This document shows, one piece after another, positions 22,107-49,905 of a stretch of DNA of 64,000 nt; position 1 is the stretch's first letter, and each line of letters opens with the position of its first letter. The notes under the pieces are model-generated. The model did not search any database. It saw only the letters and a program-made list of their open reading frames with translations, and was not told the DNA's origin. The position numbers were made by a program, and so were the translations under genes. The DNA is taken from the NCBI GenBank assembly GCA_002840095.1, contig PGZL01000012.1, forward strand, positions 1-64,000, given 5' to 3'. This DNA is from Gammaproteobacteria bacterium HGW-Gammaproteobacteria-1. GTDB taxonomy: Bacteria; Pseudomonadota; Gammaproteobacteria; Thiohalomonadales; Thiohalomonadaceae.

Positions 22107-23423
22107 ATGTCGAGTAACCTGGAAAAAACCGCCATCACCCTGGGCTTCATTCCGCTCACTGACTGCGCGCCGCTGGTGGTGGCGAAGGAGCACGGGCTGT
22201 TCGCCAAACACGGCCTGGACGTCACCCTGTCCAAGGAAACTTCCTGGGCCAATATCCGCGACAAGGTCGCCCTCGGCATCCTCGACGGCGCGCAGATGCT
22301 GGCGCCGATGCCGCTGGCCATGAGCCTGGGCATCGGTCCCATCCACAAGCCCATGGTGACCGCCTTCACCATGGACCTGAACGGCAACGCCATCACCGTC
22401 TCCAACAGTCTTTACGAGCGCATGCAGCGCGCCGATGCCGCGGCCATGGCCGAACGTCCCCTCGGCGCCCGCGCCCTCAAGGCGGTACTCGATGCCGATC
22501 GCAAGGCGGGCCGGCCGCCGCTCACCTTCGCCATGGTATTCCCGGAGTCCACCCACAACTACGAACTGCGCTACTGGATGGCGGCGGCGGGCATCGACCC
22601 CGAGCGCGACGTGCGCCTGGTGGTGGTGCCGCCGCCGCAGATGGTGGGCCAGCTGGAACGCGGCAGCATCGACGGCTATTGCGTCGGCGAGCCGTGGAAC
22701 GCGCAGGCGGTGCAGGCCGGCATCGGCCGCACCCTGATCACCAAGTACGAAATCTGGAACAACAGTCCGGAGAAGGTGCTCGGCGTGACCCAGGAATGGG
22801 CCGAGCAGTATCCCAACACCCATCACGCCCTGCTGCTGGCGCTGCTGGAGGCCGGCCGCTGGCTGGACGAACCGGATCACCGCATCGAAGCGGCGGCGCT
22901 GATCGCGCGCAGCGTGTACGTCAACGCGCCGGAACACGTGGTGCGCATGTCCATGACCGGGACCTTCCAATACGCCGCCGACGAAATGCCGCGCGCCCTG
23001 CCCGATTTCAACGTGTTCCACCGCTACGCCGCCAACTTTCCCTGGCGCTCCCACGCCCTGTGGTTCATCAGCCAGATGATCCGCTGGGGCCAGCTGGGGC
23101 ATGCAGTCGACATGCAGGCGGTGGCGGAAGAAGTCTACCGGCCGGACCTCTATCGCCGCGCCGCCGCGGAACTGTCCCTGCCCTGCCCCGGCATCGACTA
23201 CAAAACTGAAGGCAAGCACGACGCCGGCTGGAAGCTGTACGAAGGCGACACCAGCCTACTCATGGGCGCCGATCGCTTCCTCGACGGCCGCCTGTTCGAT
23301 CCTTCGCAGCCGCTGGAGTATTTGCGCGGCTTCGCAGTGCAACACATGAAGGCCGACGCGGCGGAACTCGCCGCCCTCAACCCAGCCGACGATGCCCGGT
23401 TGTTGGAAGGCAAAACCCATTAA
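22107..23423 (+). CDS. nasS: NasS-like cytosolic nitrate sensor (NrtA family, no signal peptide)
   Basis: The protein has 438 residues and is homologous over its length to the NrtA of this operon (shared blocks [47 protein letters not shown]). It lacks any export signal and starts directly at the binding fold. Cytosolic NrtA-like proteins are the NasS sensors that sequester NasT until nitrate binds, so this is the likely partner of the nasT gene at 17351. An alternative is a cytosolic subunit of the transporter. The usual gene order is nasS-nasT. Here nasS lies inside the regulated operon while nasT is upstream, which would create negative feedback. TTGGGAGTCAAG precedes the ATG. Confidence 0.8.
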   Translation: MSSNLEKTAITLGFIPLTDCAPLVVAKEHGLFAKHGLDVTLSKETSWANIRDKVALGILDGAQMLAPMPLAMSLGIGPIHKPMVTAFTMDLNGNAITVSNSLYERMQRADAAAMAERPLGARALKAVLDADRKAGRPPLTFAMVFPESTHNYELRYWMAAAGIDPERDVRLVVVPPPQMVGQLERGSIDGYCVGEPWNAQAVQAGIGRTLITKYEIWNNSPEKVLGVTQEWAEQYPNTHHALLLALLEAGRWLDEPDHRIEAAALIARSVYVNAPEHVVRMSMTGTFQYAADEMPRALPDFNVFHRYAANFPWRSHALWFISQMIRWGQLGHAVDMQAVAEEVYRPDLYRRAAAELSLPCPGIDYKTEGKHDAGWKLYEGDTSLLMGADRFLDGRLFDPSQPLEYLRGFAVQHMKADAAELAALNPADDARLLEGKTH

Positions 23424-23424
23424 A

Positions 23425-23551
23425 CGCAAAGACGCAAAGGCCGCAAAGATCGCAAAGGTGTTGATATGAGGACATGCACTGTCATCACTATCGTCACTCC
23501 AAAAGGCACAGATATCCTTTGCGCCCTTTGCGTACTTTGCGCCTTTGCGTT
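23425..23551. repeat. 8/9-bp periodic inverted repeat (CGCAAAGA type)
   Basis: CGCAAAGN units begin one base after the nasS stop (23425-23459). Their complement, CCTTTGCGN, is at 23516-23551, and the two halves enclose about 56 bp. Confidence 0.85.
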
Positions 23552-23584
23552 GAAGTCTTTTGACTCTTAACGGAGATCGCCCCC

Positions 23585-26120: not shown

Positions 26121-26435
26121 ATGAACGACTGGATCACCATAGGAAAACTGGAAGACATTCCGCCTCAGGGCGCACGCGTGGTTCAGACCGCGGCCGGAGA
26201 GATCGCCGTCTTTCGCGCCAGGAGCGATGCGGTGTTCGCCCTGGCCAACCGCTGTCCGCACAAGGGCGGACCGCTGTCCGAGGGCATCGTGTTCGACCAC
26301 CACGTCGCCTGCCCGCTGCACAACTGGAAGATCAGCCTGGAAAGCGGCGAGGCCATGGCGCCGGACCAGGGCTGCGCGCGACGCTACGCAGTACGTGTCG
26401 AGTCCGGGACCGTGCAGTTGAACCTTAACATCTAA
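26121..26435 (+). CDS. nirD: Assimilatory nitrite reductase, small subunit
   Basis: Rieske-type [2Fe-2S] protein of 104 residues that partners NirB. The two ligand motifs are CPHKGG (near residue 47) and CPLHNW (near residue 66), each giving one cysteine and one histidine. It lacks a signal peptide, as expected for a cytosolic enzyme. ATG 26121 follows GAGGAACCGACC, 79 bp after nirB. The stop TAA is directly continuous with the CGCAGAGA repeat at 26434. Confidence 0.95.
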   Translation: MNDWITIGKLEDIPPQGARVVQTAAGEIAVFRARSDAVFALANRCPHKGGPLSEGIVFDHHVACPLHNWKISLESGEAMAPDQGCARRYAVRVESGTVQLNLNI

Positions 26436-26516
26436 CGCAGAGACGCAGAGACGCGGAGGTCGCAGAGAATACAGTTGCGCGACTTTGTGTTCTCTGCGCC
26501 TCTGTGCCTCTGCGTT
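26434..26516. repeat. 8-bp periodic inverted repeat directly at the nirD stop
   Basis: Starting within the nirD stop codon, CGCAGAGA/CGCGGAGG units run to 26468. The complementary half (CTCTGCGCCTCTGTGCCTC) is at about 26491-26516. It separates nirD from nasA. Confidence 0.85.
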
Positions 26517-26560
26517 GGGTGTTGTCCTTTCTTGCATCTTTGCGTTGAAGACTTTTGACG

Positions 26561-43111: not shown

Positions 43112-43216
43112 GGATATTTGGCGATATTTGGGATATTTGGGGGCAGAGTAAAAAACCATGACTTCAAATATCTTCGAGTTTTTACTCTGACCCTAAATAT
43201 CCCTAAATATCCTGCC
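43112..43216. repeat. Inverted repeat with GGGATATTTGGG/CAGAGTAAAAA arms
   Basis: The left arm (43112-43154) has GGGATATTTGGGGGCAGAGT then AAAAA. The right arm (43179-43216) is its imperfect complement (TTTTTACTCTGACCC then TAAATATCC). The GGGTCAGAGTAAAAA type end is common in REP/RAYT-related repeats, but no transposase is here. Confidence 0.75.
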
Positions 43217-43305
43217 AAAAGCATCAGCAAAGCAGAATTCCAGAGCCCCCAAATCCTTTTGTTAAGTGCGATTTCCAATCTTTCCACGAAGTTCTCCGCC
43301 CTTGC

Positions 43306-43399
43306 AGCTAACGTAGAGCCAACCGGCGCTGCGCCGCTTTATGGCGCGGCGTCCCGCGACCGAAGGAACTATCGAGTCCGGTTGAAAACATAGTTAAGG
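43306..43399 (-). other. Candidate attC site (degenerate)
   Basis: Core-like heptamers CCTTAAC and GTTAGCT (minus strand) bound 94 bp. Inside are the perfectly paired CAACCGG/CCGGTTG and GCCGC/GCGGC stems. It lies 3' of the lipoprotein gene, in the position an attC would occupy for that cassette. Confidence 0.4.
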
Positions 43400-43435
43400 T
43401 GTCTGTGTGAACTGTTTTTAGGCAATCTTCGACAT

Positions 43436-43909
43436 TCACTCAAAGCTAACACGAAAATATTTTTGGTTGACGCCCTTAAGGCCTAGCGTCATGCCATATT
43501 CGGGATTCTCGCCCAAGTCCTTTTCTGACACGCGGAATCTGTTCCCTTCAACATGAAACTGCGCTTCGTAAACGTGGCGCGGCTTCATTCCTGTAACTGT
43601 AAACTCTGTTTCTCCTTGTCGATACGAAGAGACGCTATCGTGGATGCTGAGTCTAATCTTAAATTTGTGATCTCCAGGAACAACCCTGACCCAAATGGGA
43701 CATCCAACCTCCCAGCAACTCGTCTCTTTCCCATCAACGCTTAAAATCTGCCCGTTAGCACTACCCACGAATCCAGCGGTAGAAAAGACCGCCGTGTCTG
43801 AAAGTGGACGCGAGGAGTCCGAGTACATCACATATGGCTTTGTATGAAAGGTGCTCATACACGCCGATGTGCTAAGCATAAGCATCACAACAAGTAATAG
43901 GCGTTTCAC
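43436..43909 (-). CDS. Lipoprotein of unknown function (probable cassette gene)
   Basis: The 157 residues begin MKRLLLVVMLMLSTSAC, a lipoprotein signal with lipid attachment at Cys17. The rest is a beta-rich domain with two cysteines (SCWEVGC) likely to form a disulphide. The start codon is GTG 43909 with AGGAG nine bases upstream. The core heptamer GTTAGGG of the neighbouring attC-like site (43927-43993) lies about 20 bp before it, as expected at the start of an integron cassette. AT content is higher than in the chromosomal core. No family could be named. Confidence 0.75.
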   Translation of the reverse strand: MKRLLLVVMLMLSTSACMSTFHTKPYVMYSDSSRPLSDTAVFSTAGFVGSANGQILSVDGKETSCWEVGCPIWVRVVPGDHKFKIRLSIHDSVSSYRQGETEFTVTGMKPRHVYEAQFHVEGNRFRVSEKDLGENPEYGMTLGLKGVNQKYFRVSFE

Positions 43910-43926
43910 TTTTTTCTCCTAATTGA

Positions 43927-43993
43927 CCCTAACGTCTGAATTTGCCGGACTGCGCGGCTTTTCGCGCAGGTCCGGTGGAATGATGGGTTGGGC
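43927..43993 (-). other. attC-like recombination site (best candidate)
   Basis: The 67-bp site is bounded by CCCTAAC and GTTGGGC, matching RYYYAAC and GTTRRRY with one mismatch in total. The centre pairs CCGGACTGCGCG with CGCGCA-G-GTCCGG, a 12-bp stem with one unpaired G, the typical extrahelical base of attC. It starts seven bases from the stop codon of the minus-strand gene at 44000. Confidence 0.6.
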
Positions 43994-43999
43994 GGCTTG

Positions 44000-44482
44000 T
44001 CATTGGCGCCCCCGTAGGTTGTAAAGCATGCCTCCTGGCGGAGCGGCCTCGTCGGCGGCCCCCTCTCGAAGGGTTATATGGATAGCTTGCGTTCCGACAG
44101 ACTGCGTGTGTGCGCTGACCTTGGCGGACTTTGCGCTCAGATACTCGACGGTCAGTGAATTGGATGATGGCCAGCTAAGGTTTGCGCCATAGGCGTGTTG
44201 ATTTCGAGCAGCACCATATAGCGAAACTGCGGGCGAGCCTGAAGGTTGAGCCCCGTGTTCTACGACGTAGACTTCATACCCGAATGAAGTTGTAGCTCCG
44301 CCGTTGGTCTCGAAAAGTACGGCATCAACCTCTCCGGACGGCGACACGATACGAGCAACTTCGTCTTTGCTCGACTCACCAACCAGCCCGGAGAAAAACC
44401 AAGCCATCAGCAGCACTGCGCCGACTGCTAAGGACGCAAGGGCGCCAACAATCCAGAGAATCCATTTCAGCGATCGCGGCAT
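44000..44482 (-). CDS. Single-pass membrane protein, unknown function (probable cassette gene)
   Basis: The 160-residue protein has one N-terminal membrane helix (about 8-32) after a basic start (MPRSLKW). The extracytoplasmic domain contains GGATTSFGYEVYVVEHG, a motif reminiscent of small DUF-type proteins common in gene cassettes. ATG 44482 is preceded by GGAAG. Its stop lies seven bases from the best attC-like site. No enzymatic motif is visible. Confidence 0.7.
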   Translation of the reverse strand: MPRSLKWILWIVGALASLAVGAVLLMAWFFSGLVGESSKDEVARIVSPSGEVDAVLFETNGGATTSFGYEVYVVEHGAQPSGSPAVSLYGAARNQHAYGANLSWPSSNSLTVEYLSAKSAKVSAHTQSVGTQAIHITLREGAADEAAPPGGMLYNLRGRQ

Positions 44483-44516
44483 TAGCATGACTTCCAACCA
44501 ACCAATGAGTAAATAA

Positions 44517-44631
44517 AAGGGGACGGAGGAATTAAACTATAACCAACTACGACTGCTGGTCACTTTTTAATCCCTCCGTCCCCTTTTTCTCGACTGCTGG
44601 TCACTTTTTAATCCCTCCGTCCCCTTTTTCT
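44517..44631. repeat. GGGGACGGAGG repeat with perfect 41-bp tandem duplication
   Basis: An inverted end AAAGGGGACGGAGG (44517-44530) faces two identical 41-bp direct copies (44550-44590 and 44591-44631). Each copy ends TTTTTAATCCCTCCGTCCCC then TTTTT. The exact identity of the copies points to a recent slip or unequal exchange. Confidence 0.9.
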
Positions 44632-44673
44632 ACCCTTTTTCTAGGGCACGGGTAGGCAGGTAACTTGGCTTGG

Positions 44674-44703
44674 GGGAAGCTCTGAACAGGTTCAGAGCTT
44701 CCC
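44674..44703. terminator. Perfect 13-bp stem-loop
   Basis: GGGAAGCTCTGAA (44674-44686) and its exact complement (44691-44703) close a CAGG loop. It lies 3' of the minus-strand gene at 44756. No T-run follows on either strand, so a terminator role is uncertain. It may belong to a decayed attC or another repeat. Confidence 0.5.
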
Positions 44704-44755
44704 GGTGCGGGGATACTCGTGATGACCTTCTTGCAAGGTGTGGGCGATGGGATAT

Positions 44756-45034
44756 TCATTCTTCGCTCATCAATTCATGCATATGCTCAAGGCAAAGACA
44801 CTTGGCGTGTTCCAGGGTATCGACCAAAATACCTGAATGCTGCTCGCTCCAGAATGCCTCGCCCACGATATCCCAATCAGACGTGTCCCAGAAATCGGTA
44901 CGGACACGATAGATCCCATCCATGCCGATGGAGATAACGCACCGCAGCTGCTTAGAACGAGCGTATACCACCTCAACTACAGACTGACCGAGGATGGTTG
45001 GCACATGGGAAGTATCTGGCTTTGGAGCTTCCAT
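44756..45034 (-). CDS. Hypothetical protein (probable cassette gene)
   Basis: The 92-residue soluble protein starts MEAPKPDTSHVP. The body has a beta-rich pattern (IGMDGIYRVRTDFWDTSDWD) and a C-terminal helix with CLCLEHMHELMSEE. It lacks any signal peptide. The ATG at 45034 lies six bases after a core-like heptamer GTTAGAG (45041-45047 on the other strand), as in cassettes with a short leader. A longer frame would translate the attC-like site. No family is recognised. Confidence 0.6.
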   Translation of the reverse strand: MEAPKPDTSHVPTILGQSVVEVVYARSKQLRCVISIGMDGIYRVRTDFWDTSDWDIVGEAFWSEQHSGILVDTLEHAKCLCLEHMHELMSEE

Positions 45035-45040
45035 TGGGTG

Positions 45041-45115
45041 CTCTAACGTAAAGGTGAGGGGCGCTGAACTGAGGTGGCGCCGTTTGCGGAGCGTCTCTCT
45101 CGACCGCCATGCCAA
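45041..45115 (-). other. Candidate attC site (one end decayed)
   Basis: One core, CTCTAAC/GTTAGAG, is clear. The inner arms GAGGGGCGCT and AGCGTCTCTC pair with two mismatches, and CTCGACCG follows, as in the decayed site at 43306. The second core is not recognisable. Confidence 0.3.
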
Positions 45116-45130
45116 GCGCGTGCGAAGGCA

Positions 45131-45262
45131 TTACTCGTGTGCCGCACCTGAATCGAAGAGGCCCAAATCCACCGATCCAGCGGACGAAGGCGCCGTGGCC
45201 CTCAATACCCGGCCGAAGTTCGTCGTATCCAGGACGCTCATCTCCTTATCTCTCAAGCGCAT
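45131..45262 (-). CDS. Possible 43-residue cassette ORF
   Basis: The frame runs from ATG 45262 to TAA 45131 and encodes MRLRDKEMSVLDTTNFG onward to GAAHE. It begins inside the GTTATGC core of the attC-like site at 45259-45352 and ends just before the decayed site at 45041. A cassette ORF would occupy this position. There is no ribosome site before the first ATG, although AAGGAG adjoins an internal ATG. It may be a truncated gene or non-coding. Confidence 0.25.
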   Translation of the reverse strand: MRLRDKEMSVLDTTNFGRVLRATAPSSAGSVDLGLFDSGAAHE

Positions 45263-45352
45263 AACGCTGCAGATCGGGAGCCGTCAGGGTCAGAACACAG
45301 ATGTCGCTAATATTTGAGGAATCCATGTTCTGACCCCGGCTTCATGTTAGCC
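45259..45352 (-). other. Candidate attC site with palindrome in its loop
   Basis: Cores GCATAAC and GTTAGCC bound 94 bp. AGCCG/CGGCT form an inner stem. The centre is a separate palindrome with GGGTCAGAACA and TGTTCTGACCC arms. It lies 3' of the minus-strand gene at 45367. Confidence 0.4.
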
Positions 45353-45366
45353 ACAAACACTAAAAG

Positions 45367-45603
45367 CTATATAAAGGAACTAGTACAGGTAGTATCGACA
45401 GGAGACTTAACGTCAACCAATGAGTTAAACAAGCCAACATCTTTTTTGTCAGTGAACTTACCAGACCCCGTAGTAACCCAAGCAGTTTTTCGCCGCCATT
45501 GACACTGTTCAGATGTTGCAACATCTATGCGGATCTTTTTAGAATTTGTCCCATACCATGACGCAACCTTCTTCCATTTATTGGCCTTGAGTTGAATAGA
45601 CAT
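45367..45603 (-). CDS. Hypothetical small protein (probable cassette gene)
   Basis: The 78-residue basic protein starts MSIQLKANKWKKVASWYG and contains WRRKTAWVTTGSGKF. It ends with two cysteines close together (TTCTSSF). GAGGGAG lies eight bases before ATG 45603. The gene is AT-rich compared with the core genome. Attachment-like sites flank it on both sides (45259 and 45761). No similarity to a known family is apparent. Confidence 0.6.
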   Translation of the reverse strand: MSIQLKANKWKKVASWYGTNSKKIRIDVATSEQCQWRRKTAWVTTGSGKFTDKKDVGLFNSLVDVKSPVDTTCTSSFI

Positions 45604-45760
45604 ATCGATCTCCCTCTCTTGTTAACATCATGTTCAAATTTCCTACATACCTTCCATACATTTCTAGAGCATTAAATCTAAAATTTTGACATCTAGAAAT
45701 TTATTCATTTTTGAACCCACATCTCCAACGCCAGAAATCTTATGCTCCGATTAGTTAATC

Positions 45761-45838
45761 GTTTAACCAGCCCGCGCCGCTGCCGCTGTTTGAAACGGCG
45801 CAAGCGTTTCCGGTGTCGGGCTCAGCGACTGGTTAGCG
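45761..45838 (-). other. attC-like recombination site
   Basis: Cores GTTTAAC (perfect RYYYAAC) and GTTAGCG bound 78 bp. AACCAG/CTGGTT and CCCG/CGGG pair across the site, with a GCCG/CGGC inner hairpin. The stop codon TAA of the gene at 45833 falls inside the outer core, which is common in integron cassettes. Confidence 0.55.
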
Positions 45839-46150
45839 GCTTTTCTGTATCCAGTGCCACAGAGCGTATTTGAGCTCATCCTGATTCCAACCCGACTGAA
45901 GAATTTCGCCTTGTTCAGATACAGGCGAAAAGTTAAAACTTTCTTCCACATCTTCGTAGTACATAACTTCCGTTCCATTCTTCGCGACAACGAACACCTC
46001 TTCGGACTTTCTGCACCTTTGAATTGGCGCCTTATACGGCGCCACGCGAAAGCGCTCAAATATCTCCTTTTGTTCCTCGCTGAACCCAGTCAATTCTGCT
46101 TGGATAAGTCGTTCGAGCGAGGATTGTGAAATAGGATGCCACTCTTCCAT
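45833..46150 (-). CDS. Hypothetical protein (probable first visible cassette gene)
   Basis: The 105-residue acidic protein starts MEEWHPISQSSLERLIQ. It has a helical N-terminus, a central beta segment (VFVVAKNGTEVMYYEDVEE) and a helical C-terminus rich in tryptophan (DELKYALWHWIQ). A core-like GTTAGCG heptamer lies about 10 bp before ATG 46150, and the stop overlaps the attC-like site at 45761. No signal or membrane segment is present. The length and pattern suggest a small immunity-like or SMI1-like protein, but the evidence is too thin to name it. Confidence 0.65.
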   Translation of the reverse strand: MEEWHPISQSSLERLIQAELTGFSEEQKEIFERFRVAPYKAPIQRCRKSEEVFVVAKNGTEVMYYEDVEESFNFSPVSEQGEILQSGWNQDELKYALWHWIQKSR

Positions 46151-46458
46151 CTTCAGTACCGCTAACAGCTATTTCGGCTTACGCCGTCGTAATGGTAATA
46201 GTACCGCTGCGGCCTACCACATTTGTCACCGCATGGCCGAGAGTGATGTTTCTATCGATGAACCAGCAAGCTGCCGTCATGTCCTCGGTCCCGCCTCATC
46301 CATTAGTACGGATACTGCCAAAAGGACGGGCCGACTGTCTGTAGGTGGATGCCTACAGCCCGCCTCCCGATCTCCCCCACTGTCGTGGGGAGGAAATCCC
46401 CCTCCCCGCCCCTGGGCCACATACTCCCGGCGTGGGGACGGAGTTAGACGGAGAGAGG
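46151..46458. other. Intergenic boundary of the cassette-like region
   Basis: No gene is seen in these 308 bp. The left end (46152-46200) has a core-like CGCTAAC and short hairpins (CGGC-TTAC-GCCG) that may be a decayed attC or an attI remnant. The right part has TGTAGG/CCTACA (about 46340-46357) and CCCCAC-TGTC-GTGGGG (46375-46390) hairpins. The latter could end transcription of the sigma-54 activator gene. Confidence 0.4.
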
Positions 46459-48214: not shown

Positions 48215-49828
48215 ATGATTGCTGACAGTGTCGTCGACCTGTCGCGGCTGCAATTCGCCGCCACCGCGATGTACCACTTTTTGTTCGTCCCCCTGACGCT
48301 GGGACTTGCCTGGCTGCTGGTGGTCATGGAGTCGGTCTATGTGATGACCGACAAGCCGATCTACCGCGACATGACCAAGTTCTGGGGCAAGCTGTTCGGC
48401 ATCAATTTCGCCCTCGGCGTCACCACCGGCATCACCATGGAATTTCAGTTCGGCACCAACTGGGCCTACTACTCCCACTATGTCGGCGACATCTTCGGCG
48501 CGCCGCTGGCCATCGAGGGTCTGATGGCCTTCTTCCTCGAATCCACCTTCATCGGCCTGTTCTTCTTCGGCTGGGATCGTCTCTCCAAGCGCCAGCACCT
48601 GCTGGTCACCTTCCTCACCGCCTTCGGCTCCAGCATGTCGGCCCTGTGGATCCTGGTGGCCAACGGCTGGATGCAGAACCCGGTGGGCGCCGATTTCAGT
48701 TACGAAACCATGCGCATGGAGATGACCTCCTTCGCCGAGCTGCTGCTCAATCCGGTGGCGCAGGTGAAGTTCGTGCACACGGTGTCCGCCGGCTACGTCA
48801 CCGGCGCCATGTTCGTGCTGGCCATCTCCGCCTGGTACATGCTGAAGGGGCGCGACCTGGAATTTGCCCGCCGTTCCTTCGCCATCGCCGCCGCCTTCGG
48901 CCTCGCCTCCTCCATCTCAGTGGTGATCCTGGGCGACGAGTCCGGCTACGAGCTGGGCGACGTGCAGAAGGTGAAGCTGGCCGCCATCGAAGCGGAATGG
49001 GAAACCCACCCGGCGCCCGCCGCCTTCACCCTGTTCGGCTTTCCCGATCAGGCAAATGAAACCACCCACGCCGCGGTAAAGATCCCCTGGGCCCTGGGCC
49101 TCATCGCCACCCGCTCCACCTCGGAGGAGGTGAAGGGCATCCGCGATCTCAAGGCGGATCATGAGGTGCGCATCCGCAACGGCATGGTGGCCTACGACCT
49201 GCTCACCAGGCTGCGTGCCGGCCAGACCGACGACGCCACCAAGGCGGCCTTCGAGGAGGTGAAAAAGGATCTCGGCTACGGCCTGCTGCTGAAGAAGTAC
49301 ACGGCGGCCGTGGTGGACGCCAGCGACGAGCAGATCCGCATGGCGGTGGACGACACCATTCCGCAGGTGGCGCCGTTGTTCTGGACCTTCCGCGTCATGG
49401 TGCTGCTCGGTTTCTGGTTCATCGTGCTGTTCAGCCTCGCCTTCTGGTACTGCGCCAAACGCACTGCCGGGCAGAAGCCCTGGCTGCTGCGGGCGGCGCT
49501 GTGGTCGCTGCCGCTGCCGTGGATCGCCAGCGAGGTCGGCTGGTTCGTCGCCGAATACGGCCGCCAGCCCTGGTCCATCGGCGAAGTCCTGCCCACGCGC
49601 CTGTCCACCTCGGTCCTGGGTCAGGGTGACCTGTGGTTCTCCCTCGCCGGCTTCATCGGCTTCTACACCCTGCTGCTGGTGGTGGAGATGTACCTGATGT
49701 TCAAGTACGCGCGCCTCGGCCCGTCCAGCCTCGGCACCGGGCGCTATCACCATGAAGATAACGGCCAGGATCCAACGCAGAGACGCAGAGGCGCGGAGAA
49801 CGCAGAGAAGGCACCTTCATTGGCTTGA
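48215..49828 (+). CDS. cydA: Cytochrome bd ubiquinol oxidase subunit I
   Basis: CydA carries the haems b558, b595 and d that reduce oxygen to water with quinol. The 537-residue membrane protein shows the ligand histidine in [10 protein letters not shown] (His21), the GRQPW block near residue 450 and the conserved [16 protein letters not shown]. The second ligand histidine is in [12 protein letters not shown] quinol-binding loop lies at about 250-385. The C-terminus is unusual: about the last 19 residues (from [14 protein letters not shown]) are encoded by a CGCAGAGA-type intergenic repeat that starts inside the gene. The natural end was probably near residue 518. AAAGGAG precedes ATG 48215. 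Confidence 0.97.
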
Positions 49829-49890
49829 TACCGCGGACGTGCAAGACATGGATTCCTCTGCGACCTCTGTGTCTCTGCGCCTCTGCGTTG
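49775..49890. repeat. 8-bp periodic inverted repeat overlapping the cydA 3' end
   Basis: Left half CGCAGAGACGCAGAGGCGCG (49775-49809 region), right half CTCTGCGNCCTCTGTG type (49855-49890). It overlaps about 55 bp of cydA. Its right end runs into the AAAGGGG ribosome site of cydB. Confidence 0.87.
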
Positions 49891-49905
49891 AAAGGGGTTC
49901 ATAAA

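Follow-up and report, generated by a model that had tools for sequence, protein, structure and literature searches.

The minus-strand gene array in the stretch of Gammaproteobacteria bacterium HGW-Gammaproteobacteria-1 DNA that was analysed (64,000 nucleotides, hereafter the window) is headed by an attI-like site of its own, which belongs to a set of such sites dispersed over the genome. The array is a CALIN (cluster of attC sites lacking integrase) of about five cassettes, and it probably belongs to what is called here a distributed integron, in which the action of the integrase IntI in trans is inferred. Its features are listed below, with bit scores from the second of the two attC covariance models (R1 and R2) described further on.

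46164-46360, minus strand: attI-like head of family A; a hairpin (CTGTAGG..CCTACAG), then a conserved stretch
45833-46150, minus strand: cassette 1 gene, 105 aa, unknown function
45753-45838, minus strand: degenerate attC of cassette 1; gene stop TAA inside the R'' core GCTAAC; 11.3 bits
45367-45603, minus strand: cassette 2 gene, 78 aa, unknown function
about 45259-45352, minus strand: attC of cassette 2; ends GGCTAAC...GTTATGC; identified by sequence and fold (z -3.6)
before the attC at 45041-45117, minus strand: cassette 3, ORF-poor
45041-45117, minus strand: degenerate attC; R' GTTAGAG intact, R'' lost; 14.0 bits
44756-45034, minus strand: cassette gene, 92 aa, unknown function
44513-44720, minus strand: REP-like repeats between two genes; GGGGACGGAGGGATTAAAAAGTGACCAGCAGTCG twice and a GGAAGCTCTGAAC hairpin
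44000-44497, minus strand: cassette gene, 165 aa, unknown function; N-terminal hydrophobic segment
43927-43993, minus strand: best attC, GCCCAAC ... GTTAGGG, 67 bp; supported by R1, R2 and fold
43436-43909, minus strand: cassette gene, 157 aa, unknown function; lipoprotein-like signal LSTSAC (by eye)
43306-43399, minus strand: attC of OXA-21 type, R'' CCTTAAC ... R' GTTAGCT; blastn homology and 14.2 bits

A preliminary description, made from the sequence alone, had reported five small minus-strand genes with attC-like core heptamers. This observation is real, the genes and heptamers being present where it had placed them, and its reading as an attC cluster without integrase carrying cassette genes can be accepted with little doubt. 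The cassette genes gave no match to Pfam or PADLOC, and solely weak, meaningless matches far below cut-off to NCBIfam. No relatives of the 43436-43909 protein were found in the viral contigs searched.

The attC sites were evaluated with R1, built from 16 seeds from relatives, other contigs and plasmid pR55 (none from the window), and with R2, a refined model built from 36 sites. An unfiltered R1 search of the 64 kb returned one match with E<5, namely 43927-43993 on the minus strand (20.2 bits, E 0.015), which was also the best site of the preliminary description. Single-stranded folding of its bottom strand confirmed the hairpin expected for attC (z -3.5). This site, which scored 19.5 bits with R2, thus satisfies the criteria for attC by both model match and fold, and the remaining sites of the window are weaker. 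The four R2-scored sites are among the 11 best matches in 128 kb of strand, and they lie on the same strand within 2.6 kb.

The weaker sites are not proven by the model alone. The site at 43306-43399 is backed independently, because its segment 43303-43354 is 86.5% identical (blastn, E 4e-6) to the attC of the clinical blaOXA-21 cassette on plasmid pR55, and 88-92% identical to attCs that the same genome carries on contigs C57 and C59. The site at 45041-45117 is degenerate; it has no AAC in R'' and would not stand alone, and its 3' half is similar to attCs of the integron platform in G015, a complete genome of the same genus. At the site reported earlier at 45761-45838, the gene stop codon TAA does lie in the R'' core, and the R2 match to 45753-45838 (E 2.3) is too weak to stand alone. 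The site at 45259-45352 gave no covariance-model match; its hairpin is replaced or extended by a REP-like palindrome (GGGGTCAGAACA..TGTTCTGACCC).

Such REP-like palindromes occur inside or between cassettes at 45265-45352, at 44513-44720 (GGGGACGGAGGG repeats) and at 43117-43219 (TTTTTACTCTGCCCC), and were found again elsewhere in the genome. A similar palindrome adjoins an attC on contig C36 of the genome G014. In addition, a REP-associated tyrosine transposase gene (NF047646, E 3e-57; L102:2189-2716, corresponding to about 109.5-110.0 kb of contig C1) is located immediately 3' of a cassette headed by an attI copy of family B. As attC and REP hairpins can both act as single-stranded DNA, it is conceivable that REP elements target attCs. 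Separately, long imperfect palindromes of type GCAGAGACGCAGAGGCGC at 26417-26550, 49770-49893 and 23419-23555 mimicked attC in a simple scan and are considered unrelated repeats.

The attI-like head was not part of the preliminary description, which had listed a core heptamer just before the start codon at 46150. The GTTAGCG found there is no attC core; it is the end of the head. The head core (46164-46230) ends with GCCGAAATAGCT followed by GTTAGCG, i.e. an L-like GCCGAA, a 6-nt spacer and GTT. The head stops exactly at the G of the GTT of the first cassette, and the sequence after it is unrelated. In an nhmmer comparison with the heads of eight arrays, the window head scored 195.7 bits, with a model that includes the window copy. 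As an attC, the family A head was rejected (no R2 match, no special fold, z -0.3). As a known RNA, the window head found no support: the Rfam search of the window gave nothing at gathering threshold, and the best match in the vicinity of the head (E 1) was not convincing. An attI function of the heads is inferred.

From a comparison of the sequences upstream of 24 attC-bearing loci, three homologous head families (A, B and C) emerged. A search with the window array region had returned fragments on other contigs, and searches with the attI regions of B and C returned further copies. In this genome, 12 loci are headed (four A, seven B, one C), eleven of them outside the window:

family A heads, this genome: C31 (the window), C57, C10, C30
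family B heads, this genome: C59, C3, C66, C66 at 362 kb, C67, C1, C24 at 385 kb
family C head, this genome: C24 at 457 kb

The window-type block also lies upstream of arrays in G014, G015 and G017. The heads of families B and C duplicate attI regions adjacent to intI or to its remnant, and they also head arrays elsewhere in the genus. The attI next to the intI remnant of C59 belongs to family B and the one next to the intact intI gene in G015 (328.5-328.8 kb) to family C, and their copies at other loci head unrelated cassettes. Family A has no known intI neighbour and shares merely the short L/R layout with an intI-side attI (G016 intI-side end GTCTAAAATACGTTAG).

Exactly at G/TT, identity declines in all three families from 75-99% to 27-32%. 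For the last 30 bp ahead of the cut, mean pairwise identity amounts to 0.77 (A), 0.75 (B) and 0.99 (C), and for +3..+32 after the cut to 0.29, 0.32 and 0.27, respectively. The ends of families A and B1 read GYCKAA, 5-6 nt, GTT, and that of family C reads GCCGAA-TAGTA-GTT. An attC was present 3' of the head on the same strand, 273-2085 bp away, in 19 of 19 tabulated cases. Four head copies were found later: one is followed by an attC, one by a degenerate attC (by eye), one by no detectable cassette and one by the contig end. The heads form separate units, about 185-260 bp long, which occupy many places in the chromosome where intI is missing, and those examined closely lie directly 3' of the stop codon of a gene. 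G015, a complete genome, has its intI platform at 0.33 Mb and its headed arrays at 1.38 Mb (A), 2.44 Mb and 2.86 Mb (C); therefore, the dispersed heads are not an assembly artefact.

One alternative is that the family A head is a promoter-bearing repeat or a small transposable unit beside which cassettes land, and not an attI. In its favour, the left end of the head carries a hairpin, repeats are abundant in the genome, and no intI was found beside any family A head. On the other side, the right end coincides with G/TT at 8 of 8 loci with the L-spacer-GTT layout, and C10 keeps only its last 60-75 bp. Moreover, no Pc-like promoter is conserved in family A and none was found in the window head; among the families, a conserved promoter-like sequence was found in B alone (TTGATA-16-TATATT in B1). 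This alternative is thus unlikely.

It could also be argued that the array is an ordinary CALIN, formed by off-target insertion by IntI at non-classical genomic sites (attG). CALINs are indeed frequent, cassette insertion at attG has been documented (PMC12901181, PMC12444791), and the arrays on C29, C42 and contig C49 of G017 have no recognisable head. However, published descriptions have attG sites differing in sequence from classical att sites and spread broadly in E. coli, whereas here 60-260 bp before the junction are conserved at 12 loci and two families include an attI adjacent to intI. A non-conserved insertion site, as expected for attG, is not what the window array displays, family A having a conserved head of 60-240 bp at eight loci, and this explanation is improbable for it. 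No recognisable head was found either for arrays at the second C66 site, at 2596k in G015 and on C25 of G014. Two headless arrays carry three attCs each (L077, C29 at 61-62 kb, and L089, C49 of G017); these may represent attG insertions or a further head family.

The distributed integron, which remains the preferred reading, is also supported by attCs that are 81-96% alike across arrays headed by A, B and C; therefore, one cassette pool probably fed these arrays. Cassette exchange between arrays was looked for, but at the nucleotide level nothing else is shared apart from one 800-bp segment with an XRE-type regulator gene (85%) common to the C24 and C30 arrays (L078:10830-11600, L055:8548-9345), which lies on the strand opposite to the cassettes. 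A search of 84,980 species genomes with the family A pattern retrieved only two genomes of this genus, the record of the window possibly being left out. As a control, the region adjoining intI was examined in G016 and in G008, which represents another genus of the family; it is single copy in both of these draft genomes.

The integrase gene was searched for in the whole genome (G000, 4.23 Mb, 70 contigs, rated 100% complete). No match above cut-off to the integron-integrase model TIGR02249 was obtained, so that the absence of intI noted earlier for the window extends to the genome, where no full intI was found. The better matches were split at the IntI-specific region, as XerC/XerD would be, or consisted of a 28-aa fragment on C59. 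Two losses can be traced. C24 is the orthologous locus of the G015 platform, which comprises an intact intI, attI and an array of nine attCs; the two loci are collinear in the left flank, the end of the family C attI and the right flank, with intI cleanly deleted from C24. On C59, a second platform, intI is reduced to about 38 codons. It should be noted that G000, G014, G016 and G017 are drafts, and a further intI could lie in a gap. In terms of a complete integron, the window array lacks a functional intI and possesses an attI-like head, the latter by sequence only.

These losses could suggest that every headed array started out as a complete integron whose own intI has since disappeared. The two visible cases (C24 and C59) speak for this very improbable scenario. 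Against it, the copies of family C found at unrelated loci start only some 60 bp ahead of the intI start codon, no fragment of intI was found next to the other heads, and G015 combines one intI with at least three headed satellites.

Comparison across the genus showed that several heads at orthologous positions carry different cassettes. The window locus is orthologous to one on C78 of G017, with the same upstream sigma-54 regulator gene and a family A head followed by different cassettes, and to 2.63 Mb in G015, where the head is truncated and cassettes are absent. C57 is orthologous to the 1.38 Mb locus of G015. This practically rules out that the small genes of the window form a fixed block of the chromosome whose inverted repeats arose by chance, a view for which the degeneracy of some attC sites is the sole argument; the covariance-model match and the homology to the OXA-21 attC oppose it as well. 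The preliminary description would have been refuted by the lack of a model match at 43927 or 45761 together with genes forming a constant block; the model does match at 43927, and the cassettes differ in G017. Beyond its reach lay the window head, the eleven further headed loci of the genome and the two lost intI genes.

Heads also differ in presence. A family C head follows the same gene in G015 and G014 (in the latter with no detectable cassette) and is absent from the site in G000 and G017. At 2.86 Mb in G015, head and cassette occupy a 1.7-kb interval, the equivalent in G000 being about 75 bp. At one position after the same gene (L056, L071, L088), G014 has a family A head where G000 and G017 have one of family B, which looks like an exchange of heads at a preferred site. 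From orthologous retention, presence/absence and this last locus, it follows that heads are inherited and that they are also gained or lost; they may, in addition, be exchanged as units. The route by which they spread is inferred only.

The following mechanism is proposed for the distributed integron. IntI made from one platform would recombine the attC sites of cassettes with the dispersed heads in trans, and circular cassettes would be inserted at each head after the G of GTT. Both traceable intI genes being lost in this genome, the arrays would now be frozen. Several points count against it: no recombination was observed, the likeness of the L/R sequences to attI1 covers a short stretch and was assessed by eye, family A has no known intI neighbour, some arrays lack a recognisable head, and a conserved promoter-like sequence was found in family B alone. 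With slightly more confidence than doubt, a bolder reading can be offered: in this genus, one IntI serves three or more families of attI platforms that are dispersed over the chromosome. The platforms would be short mobile or duplicated units at vertically inherited positions, each collecting its own cassettes, so that CALINs would be satellites loaded in trans and not just debris.

By definition, an integron has a single attI located beside intI, and the usual explanation of CALINs is debris or off-target events. The window array resembles CALINs as defined by IntegronFinder in having several attCs of the same orientation, small unknown genes and no intI nearby, and differs by its conserved attI-like head common to other arrays. 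With sedentary chromosomal integrons (Vibrio, Xanthomonas), it shares attC type, array layout and an intI platform in relatives; those are described with one attI adjacent to intI, while here many attI-like copies are far from intI. Xanthomonas CALINs occupy relatively conserved positions, which the authors contrast with the scatter of attG (PMC12444791); no mention of an attI there was found. As with attG, cassettes are inserted away from the main platform, but attG sites are non-classical and diverged, whereas the heads are conserved and those of families B and C homologous to platform attI. The layout of L-box, 6-nt spacer and GTT core recalls the attI1 of class 1 integrons, whose simple site is CCCTAA AACAAA GTT and whose layout the ends of families A and B1 share. 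Delta-attI units, which form part of unusual cassettes carried by mobile integrons (PMC12901181), also place attI sequence away from its platform, while here the attI-like copy heads a separate array.

In the open-access literature searched, no report of multiple or orphan attI sites heading separate arrays was found. Three origins of CALINs have been published, i.e. off-target insertion, intI loss and rearrangement (PMC8618304), and dispersed attI is not among them. The pattern may be commoner and unnoticed, because IntegronFinder does not search for attI outside class 1, such sites being poorly described (PMC9024848). Dispersed attI copies heading arrays at fixed positions provide a testable fourth origin for CALINs and could explain the conserved positions of those in Xanthomonas; if true, a single integrase could deliver cassettes to many genomic neighbourhoods. 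Compared with known systems, the window array is a further case of the CALIN type, and what is new is the dispersed set of attI-like heads to which it belongs.
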